Positions 25-4,122 of a stretch of 64,000 nucleotides of DNA are shown here, one piece after another. The stretch is from Staphylococcus sp. NRL 16/872 (GTDB taxonomy: Bacteria > Bacillota > Bacilli > Staphylococcales > Staphylococcaceae). Position 1 is the stretch's first letter. The number at the start of each line of letters is the position of its first letter. The stretch lies in NCBI RefSeq assembly GCF_022815905.2, contig NZ_CP119327.1, positions 1,054,001 to 1,118,000 of the forward strand, read 5' to 3'. The position numbers were made by a program, and so were the translations under genes. A model generated the notes under the pieces. That model saw only the letters and a program-made list of their open reading frames with translations, was not told the origin of the DNA and made no database searches.

Positions 25-417
25 GTGATAGATGACATGACAAAAATGCTAAACAATGCTAATTTTGACGACTTTTTAAAGTTGAGTGAAAAACAGCAGA
101 AGTATATAGAAATAAAGAACGAAACAGGGCAAACAGATAAAACTATCGCTAAAAAAATCGGCATTGACACTACTACGATTAGCAGATGGAAGAAAAAAGA
201 AGAGTATCAGCTAGGTTTGAAAGGTTATCAAGCTTACTATCTTAGTGAGAAAACGCCACAAGCACTTTTAACCATGACAAAGTTGCTAAATGCCAGAAGT
301 GAATTAGTGAGGTTCCAAGCCGCAAAAGATATACTTGACCGTTCTGGTTATAATCCTGTTGATAAGCAACAAATCGAAACGAATGCGACGGTGCAATTCA
401 ATGACGACATCACTTAA
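25..417 (+). CDS. terS: Terminase small subunit (TerS)
   Basis: A 130-aa protein that would recognise the phage pac site and recruit the large terminase to start headful packaging. Residues about 20-60 form a helix-turn-helix (TDKTIAKKIGIDTTTISRWK), as in phage small terminases. The C-terminal part would form the oligomerisation region. The ORF opens with GTG at 25; an ATG at 37 is an alternative start, and no spacing to the AAAGG at 17-21 is ideal for either. It overlaps terL by 17 nt, which suggests coupled translation. The family call rests on size, HTH and position directly before terL. Confidence 0.85.
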   Translation: MIDDMTKMLNNANFDDFLKLSEKQQKYIEIKNETGQTDKTIAKKIGIDTTTISRWKKKEEYQLGLKGYQAYYLSEKTPQALLTMTKLLNARSELVRFQAAKDILDRSGYNPVDKQQIETNATVQFNDDIT

Positions 418-1882
418 CTTATCTGAATTGATACCAAAGCACTTTCATGGTTTATGGCGAGCAACAAAAGACCCTAACATACTAAACGTTGTGGCAAAAG
501 GTGGGCGTGGTAGTGGTAAGTCGTCTGATATATCCATTATCATTACTCAACTGATTATGCGTTATCCGATGAATGCAGTAGTTGTGCGTAAGACAGATAA
601 CACGTTAGCAACGTCTGTGTTCGAGCAAATAAAGTGGGCGATTGAGGAACAGAAAGTATCGCACTTATTCAAAGTTAAAGTGTCGCCTATGGAATTAACA
701 TATATACCGAGAGGGAACAGAATTATCTTCAGGGGTGCGCAGAACCCAGAACGATTAAAGTCGTTAAAAGATAGTCGGTTCCCTTTTTCTATTATGTGGA
801 TAGAAGAATTAGGCGAGTTCAAAACGGAAGATGAAGTGACTACGATTACTAACTCAATGTTACGTGGAGAGTTAGACGAAGGTCTATTCTACAAATTCTA
901 TTTCTCATACAACCCGGCTAAGCGTAAGCAACACTGGGCAAACAAGAAATATGAAACGTCATTCCAACCAGATAATACATTCGTACATCACTCAACGTAC
1001 TTAAATAACCCTTTTATATCTAAACAATTTATACAAGAGGCAGAGAGTGCTAAACAACGTAACGAATTAAGATATCGCTGGGAGTATTTAGGTGAGGCAA
1101 TTGGTAGTGGCGTTGTACCATTTAATAATTTACGTATAGAACCTATACCAGATGAGTTATACAACACATTTGATAACATTCGCAACGGTTGCGACTTTGG
1201 TTATGCTACTGACCCTTTAGCATTTGTACGTTGGCATTATGATAAAAAGAAACGTATTATCTACGCAGTTGATGAACATTATGGTGTGCAGATAAGTAAT
1301 AGAGAGTTTGCTAACTGGTTGAAGAAGAAAGGCTATCAGTCTGACGAGATATATTGTGACTCCGCCGAACCCAAGTCAATTGCAGAACTTAAACAAGAAC
1401 ATGGTATCAAAAGAGTTAAAGGTGTGAAAAAAGGTCCTGACAGTGTTGAACACGGCGAGCAATGGCTTGATGATTTAGATGCTATTGTGATTGACCCTAA
1501 GAGAACACCAAATGTTGCAAGAGAATTTGAGAATATTGATTACGAAACAGATAAAGACGGCAATGTTAAGCCGAGATTAGAAGATAAAGATAACCACTGT
1601 GTAACAGGCGATACACTAATTGATACATCAAAAGGACAAATACCTATTAAAGATTTAGTGGGTACTACCGGATTAGTAAAGTGTTTTAACGAAGATAAAC
1701 AAATCGCTACTGAATCAACATACTTTGATGTAAGGCTAACTAGAGAAAATGCTGAGGTGTTTGAAATCGAAACAGAAAGTGGGCGTAAAATCAAAGCGAC
1801 AAGTGACCATTTAGTATTAACCACAAGTGGTTGGAAAATGGTTGAAGAACTCAATAATGACGATGAAATAATTAGTATATAA
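401..1882 (+). CDS. terL: Terminase large subunit N-part fused to split-intein N-half
   Basis: A 493-aa product in two parts. Residues 1-399 are a Terminase_3/SPP1-type large terminase: Walker A GGRGSGKS at residues 34-41, a Walker B-like strand ending IMWIEELGEF, and nuclease acids D265 (GCDFGY) and D320 (YCDSAEP). Residues 400-493 are an intein N-half. It opens with Cys1 (CVTGDTLIDT, block A), carries the block B TxxH motif (TSDH) and ends in VEELNNDDEI just before a TAA. The third nuclease Asp is missing here and is encoded at 2644-2646. ATG 401 is preferred over upstream in-frame codons because it gives a normal TerL N-terminus and overlaps terS. Alone, this gene should give an active ATPase but an incomplete nuclease; trans-splicing with the 2449-2706 product would give 421 aa, about the length of SPP1 G2P. 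That splicing occurs is inferred. Confidence 0.93.
   Translation: MTTSLNLSELIPKHFHGLWRATKDPNILNVVAKGGRGSGKSSDISIIITQLIMRYPMNAVVVRKTDNTLATSVFEQIKWAIEEQKVSHLFKVKVSPMELTYIPRGNRIIFRGAQNPERLKSLKDSRFPFSIMWIEELGEFKTEDEVTTITNSMLRGELDEGLFYKFYFSYNPAKRKQHWANKKYETSFQPDNTFVHHSTYLNNPFISKQFIQEAESAKQRNELRYRWEYLGEAIGSGVVPFNNLRIEPIPDELYNTFDNIRNGCDFGYATDPLAFVRWHYDKKKRIIYAVDEHYGVQISNREFANWLKKKGYQSDEIYCDSAEPKSIAELKQEHGIKRVKGVKKGPDSVEHGEQWLDDLDAIVIDPKRTPNVAREFENIDYETDKDGNVKPRLEDKDNHCVTGDTLIDTSKGQIPIKDLVGTTGLVKCFNEDKQIATESTYFDVRLTRENAEVFEIETESGRKIKATSDHLVLTTSGWKMVEELNNDDEIISI
1598..1879 (+). other. Intein N-half (IntN, 94 residues)
   Basis: This segment inside the terL-N gene begins with Cys codon TGT at 1598 right after DNH of the terminase and runs to the natural stop. 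It has block A (CVTGDTLI) and block B (ATSDHLVLTTSG) of the Hedgehog/intein fold and no endonuclease insert. Its counted charge is about -8 (18 acidic, 10 basic residues), typical of natural split-intein N-halves that pair with a basic C-half. Confidence 0.92.
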
Positions 1883-1905
1883 GTAGATACTTCTCGTTAT
1901 TCTTT

Positions 1906-1914
1906 TGATATAAT
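1906..1914 (+). promoter_or_regulatory. Extended -10 promoter candidate for the HNH gene
   Basis: TGATATAAT is a TG-N-TATAAT extended -10 in the 52-nt gap between the IntN stop and the endonuclease start. Transcription would begin close to 1921, at or just before the ribosome site AAGGAG (1921-1926). No good -35 is visible. It could let the endonuclease be made independently of the late operon. Confidence 0.45.
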
Positions 1915-1934
1915 AGAATTAAGGAGATGATACT

Positions 1935-2561
1935 ATGAAATACGTGTTTTTTAACGGTTTGAAATTCACTAGAGATGACAAAACTGGATATTATCTAAAT
2001 TCTACTAAGCATAAGAGATTACATCGATATGTTTGGGAATACCACAATGGGCCAATACCTGATGGTTGCCATATACATCATTTAGATCATGATAAGAGTA
2101 ATAACGATATTACGAACTTACAACTAATGAAACATGGCGAACATGCCACGTTACATGGATTAGAACGAGCAAAGTTGCAAAGAAAAGAAATCATAAGAAA
2201 TTTAGATGAAAACGCTCGGCCAGCCGCGAATAAGTGGCACAAATCAGATGAAGGACGTAAATGGCACAAAAAACATTATGAAAATACCAAAGGCAAATTA
2301 CATCAAATTAAAAAGTTTGAATGTAAAGAGTGTGGAAAAGAATTTGAAGCGCAAGATACAGGTGTTAACAGATTTTGTTCTAATAAGTGTAAATCTAAGT
2401 GGCGAAGAAAAAGTGGTTTAGATGATGTGACAAGGGAGTGCGTATATTGTGGAAAAGAATTTAAAATCAACAAGTATAAAAAAACAAAAACATGTTCCAG
2501 AAGTTGTACAAACAGGCAAAGAGCCAAAGAGGGAAAAGATAAAATCAATAAGATTTCATAG
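1935..2561 (+). CDS. Free-standing HNH homing endonuclease
   Basis: A 208-aa HNH_3-type endonuclease lying between the two intein halves and in a third reading frame. The nuclease module is at residues about 30-75 (HRYVWEYHNGPIPDGC, then HIHHLDHDKSNNDITNLQ). It is followed by a basic linker and two Cys4 zinc ribbons (CKECGKEF..CSNKC and CVYCGKEF..CSRSC) that probably bind DNA. It has its own ribosome site AAGGAG at 1921 and ATG at 1935 with 8-nt spacing, so it is a separate gene rather than part of an intein polypeptide. Its expected role, by analogy with homing endonucleases in inteins and introns, is to cut intein-free terL alleles and spread the whole cassette. The target site is inferred to be the terL sequence coding for DNH-C-IDA. 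Confidence 0.93.
   Translation: MKYVFFNGLKFTRDDKTGYYLNSTKHKRLHRYVWEYHNGPIPDGCHIHHLDHDKSNNDITNLQLMKHGEHATLHGLERAKLQRKEIIRNLDENARPAANKWHKSDEGRKWHKKHYENTKGKLHQIKKFECKECGKEFEAQDTGVNRFCSNKCKSKWRRKSGLDDVTRECVYCGKEFKINKYKKTKTCSRSCTNRQRAKEGKDKINKIS
2432..2451 (+). promoter_or_regulatory. Ribosome site and GTG start of the IntC-TerL gene
   Basis: AAGGGAG at 2432-2438 lies 10 nt before the in-frame GTG at 2449, inside the endonuclease gene. It is the only plausible start giving a complete intein C-half: the next in-frame ATG (2581) would remove the first part of block F. Confidence 0.55.
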
Positions 2562-2706
2562 TATTCAAAACGTTTATAATATGGAAGTTGAAGACCACCA
2601 CAACTATTCAGTTGATGGCGGTTTAATTATACACAATTGTATCGACGCTACACGTTACGCTTTAGAACGGGATATGCGTCAAAATCATATGAATATATTA
2701 AGGTAG
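2449..2706 (+). CDS. terL: Split-intein C-half fused to terminase C-terminus
   Basis: An 85-aa product. Residues 1-63 are the intein C-half, with block F (VYNMEVEDHHNYSVDGG) and block G ending LIIHN, then Cys+1 (TGT at 2638-2640). Residues 64-85 are the terminase C-terminus (CIDATRYALE...NILR), including the third RNase H-fold nuclease Asp (GAC 2644-2646). The penultimate His, terminal Asn and +1 Cys needed for splicing are all present. The gene starts at a GTG within the endonuclease gene in another frame. The first 30 or so residues are Lys-rich and overlap the zinc-ribbon coding sequence. It stops at TAG 2704, immediately before the portal gene. The start codon is inferred; the intein and extein assignment is firm. 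Confidence 0.9.
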   Translation: MEKNLKSTSIKKQKHVPEVVQTGKEPKREKIKSIRFHSIQNVYNMEVEDHHNYSVDGGLIIHNCIDATRYALERDMRQNHMNILR

Positions 2707-4122
2707 GTGATTTTTATTCGTTGGCCGTGGGAGAAACCATATTATGAAGAAATAACAGAACAGTTAGCGCCTAAAGTTGAGACGCAAGAAGAAATGATTG
2801 TGCGTTTAGTACAAAATCATCAGAAAGATATTGAGCGTATTTCAACAGGGCAACGCTACTACGATAAAGATAATGATATATACAGACAAAAGTATAAATA
2901 CGACCTAGACGGTAATCTTGACATAGATAAACCAGATTGGCGTATTACTACTAACTATCATCAAAACTTAGTTGACCAGAAAGTAGCTTATCTTGTTACT
3001 AACCCAGTGAGTTATTCTTGTGAGAATGAAAAAGTGCTAGATACTATCCATGAAGTGCTAGATAATCGTTGGGATAACGAGTTAATCGATGTACTCACTG
3101 CTGCAAGTAACAAAGGTATTGAGTGGGTACAGCCATACATTGACGAGAATGGCGATTTTAAGCTATTTAGAGTACCTGCTGAGCAATCTATTCCGATTTG
3201 GAAAGATAGTAAAAGAGATGCACTACAAGCGTTTATACGTGTGTTCAAATTAAACGATGAAACCAAAGTAGAATACTGGACTGAAACCGATGTTACATAC
3301 TATGTGTATGATAACGGTTCATTAATCAACGATTACTACTATGGTGAAAACAACAAACAAACACACTTCTCAACTGGTAGTTGGAATAGAGTTCCGTTTA
3401 TACCATTCAAAAACAACCCAGAAGAGGTATCGGATATTTGGCAATATAAAACAATTATAGATGCTATTGATAAGCGTTTATCTGACACACAAAATATGTT
3501 TGATGAGAGTGCAGAGTTGATTTATATCTTGCGTGGATATGAGGGAGAGAATCTCAAAGAGTTTATGCAAGGCTTAAAATACTACAAAGCAATCAATGTA
3601 GATAGTGAAGGTGGCGTTGAAACGATACAAGTTGAAGTGCCAGTCGCTAGTACAAAAGAATATCTCGATATGATGCGTCAGAACATTATGGAGTTCGGGC
3701 AAGGTGTGGACTTTCAAACAGATAAATTTGGCTCTGCGCCTAGTGGTATAGCACTCAAATTCTTATACGGTAACTTAGATTTAAAAGCGAATAAGCTAAA
3801 GAATAAAGCTACTGTTGCTATACAAGAATTAATTGAGTTTATTATCGATTTCTACAAATTAAAAGTAGATCCGAAAGATATTGAAATCACATTCAATTTC
3901 AACAGAATGATGAACGATTTAGAACAATCACAAATCGCTGCACAATCTCAATATCTATCTAAAGAAACAATTGTGAGACATCACCCGTGGGTTGACGACC
4001 CAACGGCAGAAATGGAACGTATCGAGCAAGAACAACTCGAACTCAATACACAGTTACCAGATATCGATACTGGAGGTGCTGTGAATGAACAAAGACAATC
4101 CGAAGATAAACAACCAGAATGA
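2707..4122 (+). CDS. Portal protein (SPP1 gp6-like)
   Basis: A 471-aa portal protein of the SPP1 gp6 family: the dodecameric ring at one capsid vertex through which DNA is pumped by the terminase and to which the tail connectors attach. Support comes from length, position after terL, the conserved stretch NYHQNLVDQKVAYLVTNPV near residue 85, and an acidic Gln-rich C-terminus. GTG at 2707 follows the terminase TAG directly with AAGG just upstream, so translation is probably coupled. An ATT at 2716 is the only other candidate. It overlaps the minor head gene by 38 nt. Confidence 0.88.
   Translation: MIFIRWPWEKPYYEEITEQLAPKVETQEEMIVRLVQNHQKDIERISTGQRYYDKDNDIYRQKYKYDLDGNLDIDKPDWRITTNYHQNLVDQKVAYLVTNPVSYSCENEKVLDTIHEVLDNRWDNELIDVLTAASNKGIEWVQPYIDENGDFKLFRVPAEQSIPIWKDSKRDALQAFIRVFKLNDETKVEYWTETDVTYYVYDNGSLINDYYYGENNKQTHFSTGSWNRVPFIPFKNNPEEVSDIWQYKTIIDAIDKRLSDTQNMFDESAELIYILRGYEGENLKEFMQGLKYYKAINVDSEGGVETIQVEVPVASTKEYLDMMRQNIMEFGQGVDFQTDKFGSAPSGIALKFLYGNLDLKANKLKNKATVAIQELIEFIIDFYKLKVDPKDIEITFNFNRMMNDLEQSQIAAQSQYLSKETIVRHHPWVDDPTAEMERIEQEQLELNTQLPDIDTGGAVNEQRQSEDKQPE

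Follow-up and report, generated by a model that had tools for sequence, protein, structure and literature searches.

A predicted split intein with a free-standing HNH endonuclease gene in the terminase large subunit gene of a staphylococcal prophage

The gene for the terminase large subunit (terL) of a prophage in Staphylococcus sp. NRL 16/872 is interrupted by a 1040-bp element that, by its sequence, very likely consists of a split intein and an endonuclease gene. The element was studied in a 64,000-nt window of the genome (assembly GCF_022815905.2, contig NZ_CP119327.1, positions 1,054,001 to 1,118,000, forward strand), and the coordinates given below for the window are counted from its first letter. 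Between 401 and 2706 of the window lie, in this order, an open reading frame (ORF) for most of TerL fused to the N-terminal half of an intein (TerL-IntN), an ORF for an HNH endonuclease, and an ORF for the C-terminal half of the intein fused to the end of TerL (IntC-TerL-C); their frames are 2, 0 and 1, respectively. The element would thus break terL with two class-1-type intein halves placed around a free-standing HNH gene. The halves are predicted to associate and trans-splice, yielding a seamless TerL of 421 residues, and the HNH protein likely cuts uninterrupted terL, upon which the whole element would be copied in (homing). This joint reading is held with high confidence; fragment association, splicing, cleavage of the terL site by the HNH protein, use of the GTG at 2449 and homing are its predicted steps. 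The parts of the locus are as follows.

401 to 1597, plus strand: TerL N-extein, residues 1-399, from ATG 401 to His399, with the ATPase domain and most of the nuclease domain
1598 to 2637, plus strand: whole element, 1040 bp, as compared between phages
1598 to 1882, plus strand: intein N-half, 94 aa, with Cys1 at 1598-1600 and its own stop at 1880-1882
1920 to 1927, plus strand: Shine-Dalgarno (SD) site for the HNH start codon ATG 1935, TAAGGAGA, spacing 7, duplex energy -9.0 kcal/mol
1935 to 2561, plus strand: free-standing HNH endonuclease, 208 aa, with CxxC motifs (Pfam HNH_3, PHROG_15471)
2432 to 2439, plus strand: SD-like site, AAGGGAGT, before the proposed GTG of the C-half ORF, -7.9 kcal/mol, spacing 9
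2449 to 2535, plus strand: proposed GTG start of the C-half ORF with its leader, which overlaps the HNH gene in another frame
2536 to 2637, plus strand: intein C-half core, 34 aa, with blocks F and G and terminal HN (2632-2637), mostly past the HNH stop
2638 to 2706, plus strand: TerL C-extein, from Cys+1 (2638-2640, residue 400) to the stop, 22 aa including the Cys, with the Asp of the NHxIDATRY motif

Each part was recognized by profile searches. The TerL N-extein matched Pfam Terminase_3 (162 bits) and Terminase_3C (67.6 bits; read from 404). The intein N-half, whose TxxH motif is TSDH at intein residues 68-71, matched the NCBIfam profile TIGR01445 (intein_Nterm) with 43.4 bits (cut-off 24.5) and Pfam Intein_splicing with 32.6 bits, slightly below the cut-off of 35.8; its closest solved sequences were DnaB helicase inteins (best 4o1r, E 1.2e-9). 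The HNH protein matched Pfam HNH_3 above the cut-off (64.3 bits, 7.5e-18) and PHROG_15471 (3.1e-52), and had no match when searched against solved structures. Its residues H48, H49, N56, N57, N61, H70 and H74 were invariant in 11 aligned sequences, as were the Cys columns. The intein C-half, which ends at the junction LIIHN/C, matched TIGR01443 (intein_Cterm) with 19.6 bits (cut-off 15.6) and Pfam Intein_splicing with 23.4 bits, below the cut-off. The IntC-TerL-C ORF was also matched (82 bits) by phrog_28563, a family of unknown function with 98 positions; phrog_28563 is likely a family of such intein C-half/TerL-C fragments and could be renamed.

The residues of a naturally split class-1 intein (Cys1, TxxH, HN and Cys+1) are all present, and the halves lie on separate ORFs that cannot be joined. 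The C-half frame contains 11 stops across the HNH gene, with 11.6 expected from synonymous shuffling, and three frames are used, so a continuous intein is impossible in the window. By every splice residue checked, the window carries a natural split intein, for which trans-splicing is predicted. A preliminary description of this DNA had proposed the same anatomy, namely a TerL N-terminal part ending in an intein N-half with Cys1, TxxH and a natural stop, a separate HNH gene with its own ribosome site, a third ORF with intein blocks F and G, Cys+1 and the last 22 TerL residues, and three frames that preclude a continuous intein; the analysis bore out each of these parts.

The site of insertion was apparent from uninterrupted genes, found at the very site where the preliminary description had suggested that relatives be searched for an intact terL. 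All six uninterrupted staphylococcal TerLs (phages IME1365_01 and EW, loci L009 and L010, and four genomes of the genus, L014-L017) read ...DKDNH T IDATRY, and the invaded gene reads ...DKDNH/C IDATRY, which places the insertion between His399 and residue 400. Identity to the uninterrupted terL of L009 is 1037 of 1194 nt in the N-extein and 61 of 69 nt in the C-extein. The same Thr is found in PH15 and in the solved SPP1 nuclease chain 2wbn, and Cys+1 is also found in the staphylococcal-type relatives L013, L018-L020 and L022. The predicted spliced protein has 399 + 22 = 421 residues, the length forecast by the preliminary description and equal to that of the TerLs of IME1365_01 and EW. The His and Asp of the motif (H400 and D403 of SPP1) are nuclease active-site residues, and either half of TerL alone should therefore have an incomplete nuclease site.

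The ratio of nonsynonymous to synonymous substitution (dN/dS) indicates that the two intein halves and the HNH gene are all under purifying selection. Between the window and L013, L019 and L020 it was 0.12-0.15 for the N-half, 0.09-0.11 for the HNH gene and 0-0.07 for the C-half core; for the N-half it rose to 0.37 between the window and the far locus L023. Three far pairs gave 0.22-0.45 for the N-half and 0.06-0.18 for the C-half core. The leader that overlaps the HNH gene had values of 0.17, 0.49 and 1.02 (window with L013, L019 and L020, respectively), and of 1.2-1.7 in three far pairs.

Mobility was assessed by comparing the identity of the element (1598-2637) with that of its two 1-kb flanks in six phage pairs. 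The element was 91.7% identical between the window and L019 (flanks 78.2 and 66.0%), 91.2% between the window and L020 (flanks 73.9 and 59.3%), 98.1% between L019 and L020 (flanks 75.5 and 57.3%) and 89.7% between L018 and L019 (flanks 78.7 and 66.2%). In a further pair, L019 and L022, which are two contigs under one IMG/VR genome number, it was 100% identical (flanks 93.8 and 92.9%). Because its identity exceeds that of the flanks in five of the six pairs, clearly in four and slightly in L019/L022, the element likely homes between phages as one unit. The S. borealis-type element (L013, L018 and L074) has a synonymous divergence (dS) from the window of 0.99 in the N-half and 0.31 in the HNH gene and, judged by this difference, is a mosaic within itself.

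Matches to the C-half ORF (E 0.001) were found in 6 of 84 genomes of the genus: the window's own, one other with the full layout (G008, locus L013), and four with the uninterrupted TerL end only. The same split layout was found in S. borealis (51-48, L074), in IMG/VR contigs, in phages BL3 and CL2 and in a Fructilactobacillus plasmid (L011). Six phage records matched the C-half query, and four of these have an intein C-half (BL3 and CL2, two accessions each); Brochothrix phage BL3 (L002) and Lactobacillus phage CL2 (L003) are complete phage records with the split layout. In BL3 (2196-2607) the HNH gene is cut down to a C-terminal piece, the C-half is annotated as gp3, and the intein halves share one frame but have a TGA and a TAG between them, with an ATG directly after the TAG; BL3 carries a split intein that is now without its endonuclease. 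None of the 101 phage records similar to positions 401-2720 of the window (42 of them Staphylococcus) covers 80% of that stretch in one place, in a comparison from which records very close to the window's genome may be left out. The record OR842880.1 (Xanthomonas phage SU1) has 83.9% identity to a staphylococcal terL query over 54% of the query, and is possibly mislabelled.

The start of the C-half ORF was sought upstream of the intein core, where GTG 2449, within the HNH gene but in another frame, is the sole usual start. As the letters of this GTG and of its SD site double as HNH codons, its use is only predicted; the SD-like site may be incidental, since the same letters encode the HNH residues R-E-C. 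A GTG stands at the corresponding place in L013, L018-L021, L024, CL2 and L011, and in L013 and L018-L020 the SD energy at this GTG is -7.9, equal to that of the window. The C-half of L027 begins with an ATG that has a strong SD site (-10.2), and that of BL3 with the ATG after the TAG.

To place the locus in a wider family, loci with the HNH protein were collected by scanning viral contigs (42 loci) and genome contigs (77 loci), and were classed with profiles of the N-half, the C-half and the HNH protein. Counting distinct HNH spans of at least 140 aa, which leaves out copies and shorter loci such as BL3, L054, L056, L134 and L148, 96 loci were obtained: 50 nested loci, with both halves in one ORF, 24 split loci, with the halves in different ORFs (the window included), and 22 with one half or none. 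All 50 nested loci have the HNH gene at intein frame +2 and, relative to the HNH gene, the C-half at frame +1; among all rows only L148 has its HNH match in the intein's own frame. In the split loci the N-half has its own stop and the offset from N-half to HNH gene varies (0, 1 or 2). From HNH gene to C-half the offset is +1 in 22 of the 24 (+2 in L027 and L116), and it is constant because the coding regions of the HNH 3' end and the C-half overlap. With 11 stops in the relevant frame, the window is a relative of the nested state and not a member of it.

Stops in the intein frame over the HNH span numbered 0 in the nested loci, against 97 expected in sum when their own codons were shuffled, 200 in the split loci (188 expected) and 138 in the other loci (133 expected). 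The zero count is true by definition, as the nested halves share an ORF, and a pooled test was therefore used: of the 74 loci having both halves, 51 had no stop across the HNH gene, against 7.7 expected, a count that is not a P value because the loci are related to each other. All 27 nested loci with a GC content up to 0.40 were without a stop (1.7 expected). The 51st stop-free locus is L090, from a Prevotellaceae metagenome-assembled genome (MAG), which was called split owing to a frame break within its N-half. This break (3290-3335) adjoins a G run and the HNH span is stop-free; L090 is possibly a sequence error or a very fresh split. In nine nested pairs dN/dS was 0.10-0.30 in the HNH frame and 0.63-1.55 in the intein frame, which indicates that the HNH protein is under selection and the linker need only stay open. 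An SD energy of -5 or better was found at the HNH start in 19 of 24 split loci versus 20 of 50 nested loci, and the stronger sites fit a split state in which the HNH gene has its own ribosome site. GC content was not supported as the cause of the split or nested state: the nested HNH genes have a median GC of 0.39, reaching down to 0.30, and the split ones a median of 0.36.

The host genes of 20 chosen loci were identified from their exteins, which were TerL in 9 of the 10 examined with PHROGs and in 8 of the 10 examined with Pfam (one of these eight, L089, was just under the cut-off), and belonged to several terminase families. Splice residues were counted over distinct rows with both halves, one split row being a cut-off copy of the window. 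All 51 nested rows have Cys1, as do 25 of 26 split rows. Cys+1 is present in 45 of the 51 nested and 23 of the 26 split rows (most of the remainder having Ser or Thr), and TxxH in 49 of 51 nested and 23 of 25 split rows. The contigs with nested loci are assigned to nine named bacterial phyla, candidate phyla and Thermoplasmatota, although many are MAGs and binning errors are possible. In a tree of the 96 HNH proteins, made by a quick method with 43 of 93 inner branches unsupported, split and nested loci were each clustered yet mixed; four one-half loci with stops had been set to split by hand and L086 was labelled A?. Read without a root, this tree gives no direction of change between the states.

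The origin of the split form may be pictured as follows. A continuous TerL intein that encloses the HNH gene at intein frame +2, its linker codons kept stop-free, would be the commoner and ancestral state. A stop or frame change after the N-half, together with a new start inside the HNH 3' end, would then give the split form, freeing the HNH gene from the overlap and permitting a ribosome site of its own. The split form is probably such an escape from overlap. We infer the direction from nested to split because the reverse would need many stops to be removed at once; with about ten stops to remove, the step is probably one-way. In its general form, in which a TerL-specific mobile element of at least nine bacterial phyla and archaeal MAGs overprints an HNH gene on a stop-free, meaningless linker that holds the surrounding intein together, and natural split inteins like that of the window are born, irreversibly, when the overlap breaks, this account is favoured with moderate confidence.

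Explanations without protein splicing were also considered for the window. An insertion of the HNH gene could have broken terL into fragments that act as non-covalent chains, the intein halves being passengers, and a precedent exists in a ribonucleotide reductase of a phage, which a homing endonuclease has divided (Friedrich et al., as given in PMC10448857). However, the C-fragment holds just 22 TerL residues, and the halves retain Cys1, TxxH, HN and Cys+1 under purifying selection, residues that passengers would lose. The window, L013, L018-L020 and L022 also have Cys+1 where the uninterrupted staphylococcal genes have Thr, and pieces working without splicing are very improbable. Nor is it at all likely that the locus is a decaying remnant in which a continuous intein was wrecked by frameshifts or stops and TerL is dead. 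The three frames, the non-ATG start of the C-half and the greater frequency of a continuous ORF in other phages would fit decay, but dN/dS is well below 1 in the N-half, the HNH gene and the C-half core, and the layout is found at long range, in 22 further distinct split loci with 4-12 stops and in BL3 and CL2. Furthermore, the structural genes are open (eight more structural and lysis ORFs of the prophage, all matching PHROGs), and an SD site serves the HNH gene and an SD-like site the C-half. The preliminary description had named decay of this layout in related phages as grounds against its reading; the relatives examined here do not show such decay.

Two other mechanisms would retain splicing in a different form. 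A +1 ribosomal frameshift towards the HNH 3' end would yield an HNH-IntC-TerL-C fusion that then trans-splices, in keeping with the prevalent +1 offset of the C-half and with the lack of an ATG before its core in the window. The offset is, however, accounted for by overlapping coding regions, as the HNH 3' end shares its letters with the first C-half residues; L027 at the +2 offset has its own ATG and strong SD site, and BL3 has lost most of the HNH gene and still has its C-half behind TAG-ATG; frameshifting is considered unlikely. A group I intron inside the intein gene, removed by RNA splicing to restore a continuous intein, would be in line with Exiguobacterium phage EauM-23 (L004), where this terL motif is occupied by the same HNH family, no intein halves were detected, and a group I match was weak and below threshold (11.9 bits, E 4.2). 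Yet in the window the HNH start follows the N-half stop after only 52 nt, and the HNH 3' end overlaps the C-half. Rfam Intron_gpI had no match in 1580-2720 of the window at E 10, a search of limited sensitivity given that the PH15 insert scores just 20.2 bits; at E 5 the insert's Rfam matches included no intron, and seven HNH loci without an intein had no Rfam match at E 0.5. An intron in the window is thus extremely improbable.

Two interrupted terL genes met in these comparisons are of interest in their own right. In L004 (vB_EauM-23, 2740-3740) TerL breaks at NNH.. and resumes at DATRY, and stretches of the insert resemble a group I intron by eye; an endonuclease of this kind is probably intron-borne there, at nearly the same site. 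In PH15 (L152) terL is broken elsewhere, at a DFG motif, with pieces that end at about 1480 and resume at about 2334; the insert has a SegB-like endonuclease and the weak Intron_gpI match, and terL is annotated as a joined coding sequence.

Several observations weigh against the split-intein reading. An ATG is lacking in the C-half ORF, whose GTG and SD site coincide with HNH codons; the SD site at the corresponding GTG is weaker in L021 and L011 (-4.1), CL2 (-2.5) and L024 (-0.9). Between the window and L018 the element is 88.9% identical, below the flanks (91.4 and 93.5%), with a divergent N-half, and this pair therefore shows no homing. The leader has a dN/dS of 0 between L013 and L019 (three changes in all), although drift would be expected there; in the farthest pair the N-half value is as high as 0.45, and the dN/dS values of short parts are based on few changes. 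TxxH was not detectable in 2 of 25 distinct split rows (L078 and L097). Nevertheless, the fractured-gene reading of the preliminary description, a split intein with a free endonuclease, is the best supported by the splice residues, the purifying selection, Cys+1 in place of Thr, the lack of an intron match and the element's identity above its flanks in five of six pairs.

Fractured genes of this kind were reportedly described by Dassa and colleagues in 2009 as a split intein with a free-standing homing endonuclease, there said to be of a Vsr-like family. The likeness lies in a broken host gene with intein halves at the break and an endonuclease gene between them, whereas in the window the endonuclease is of HNH_3/PHROG_15471, the host gene is terL, and the C-half is predicted to start inside the endonuclease gene; the element also has a sister state that is nested and continuous. 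Naturally split TerL inteins with Cys+1 are known in AceL-TerL and GOS-TerL at another split site (PMC11766414). Their N-parts have 25 or 37 residues and their C-parts 104 or 115, unlike the intein of the window, which splits after 94 and has a C-core of 34; an N-part of 94 rather than 25-37 residues sets it outside that type, and the available part of PMC11766414 does not mention an endonuclease gene. In the ShiLan domain an HNH gene is read in a second frame of a host ORF that is itself unbroken, and the authors found no intein or intron domain there (PMC11855218, available part). The nested sister state is similar in having the HNH gene in the other frame, but differs in lying inside an intein with splice blocks, and the window differs in carrying the split form. 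Mycobacteriophage TerL inteins are common and are reported to map to the ATPase domain, unlike the window's element, which lies in the nuclease motif NH/xDAxRY, and no alternate-frame HNH gene appears in the available part of that report (PMC5050341). An S. warneri prophage with two overlapping terL ORFs has its homing endonuclease upstream, a different layout (PMC11512304, available part).

In literature of partial coverage, neither this TerL layout nor an out-of-frame HNH gene within an intein that has splice blocks was found reported; a 2025 bioRxiv preprint by Gosselin et al., cited for overlapping frames in the available part of PMC11855218, may anticipate the nested state and less likely the staphylococcal split state. 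The preliminary description had considered the layout unfamiliar in a staphylococcal prophage terminase. This stands insofar as no such TerL report was found, but the layout is not confined to the window, recurring in S. borealis, IMG/VR contigs, BL3, CL2 and the plasmid. The nesting of the same HNH family out of frame within continuous inteins elsewhere is a more unusual fact than the split layout itself.

If the reading is right, every virion would depend on trans-splicing, because packaging requires TerL and it is the nuclease motif of TerL that the insert interrupts. The family offers a natural series for testing the origin of split inteins, comprising nested continuous inteins, split inteins with the HNH gene, a split intein without it (BL3) and HNH genes without an intein. 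The constant frame relation of the nested HNH gene provides an annotation rule for endonucleases hidden inside inteins, and the split halves may serve as new protein-ligation tools.

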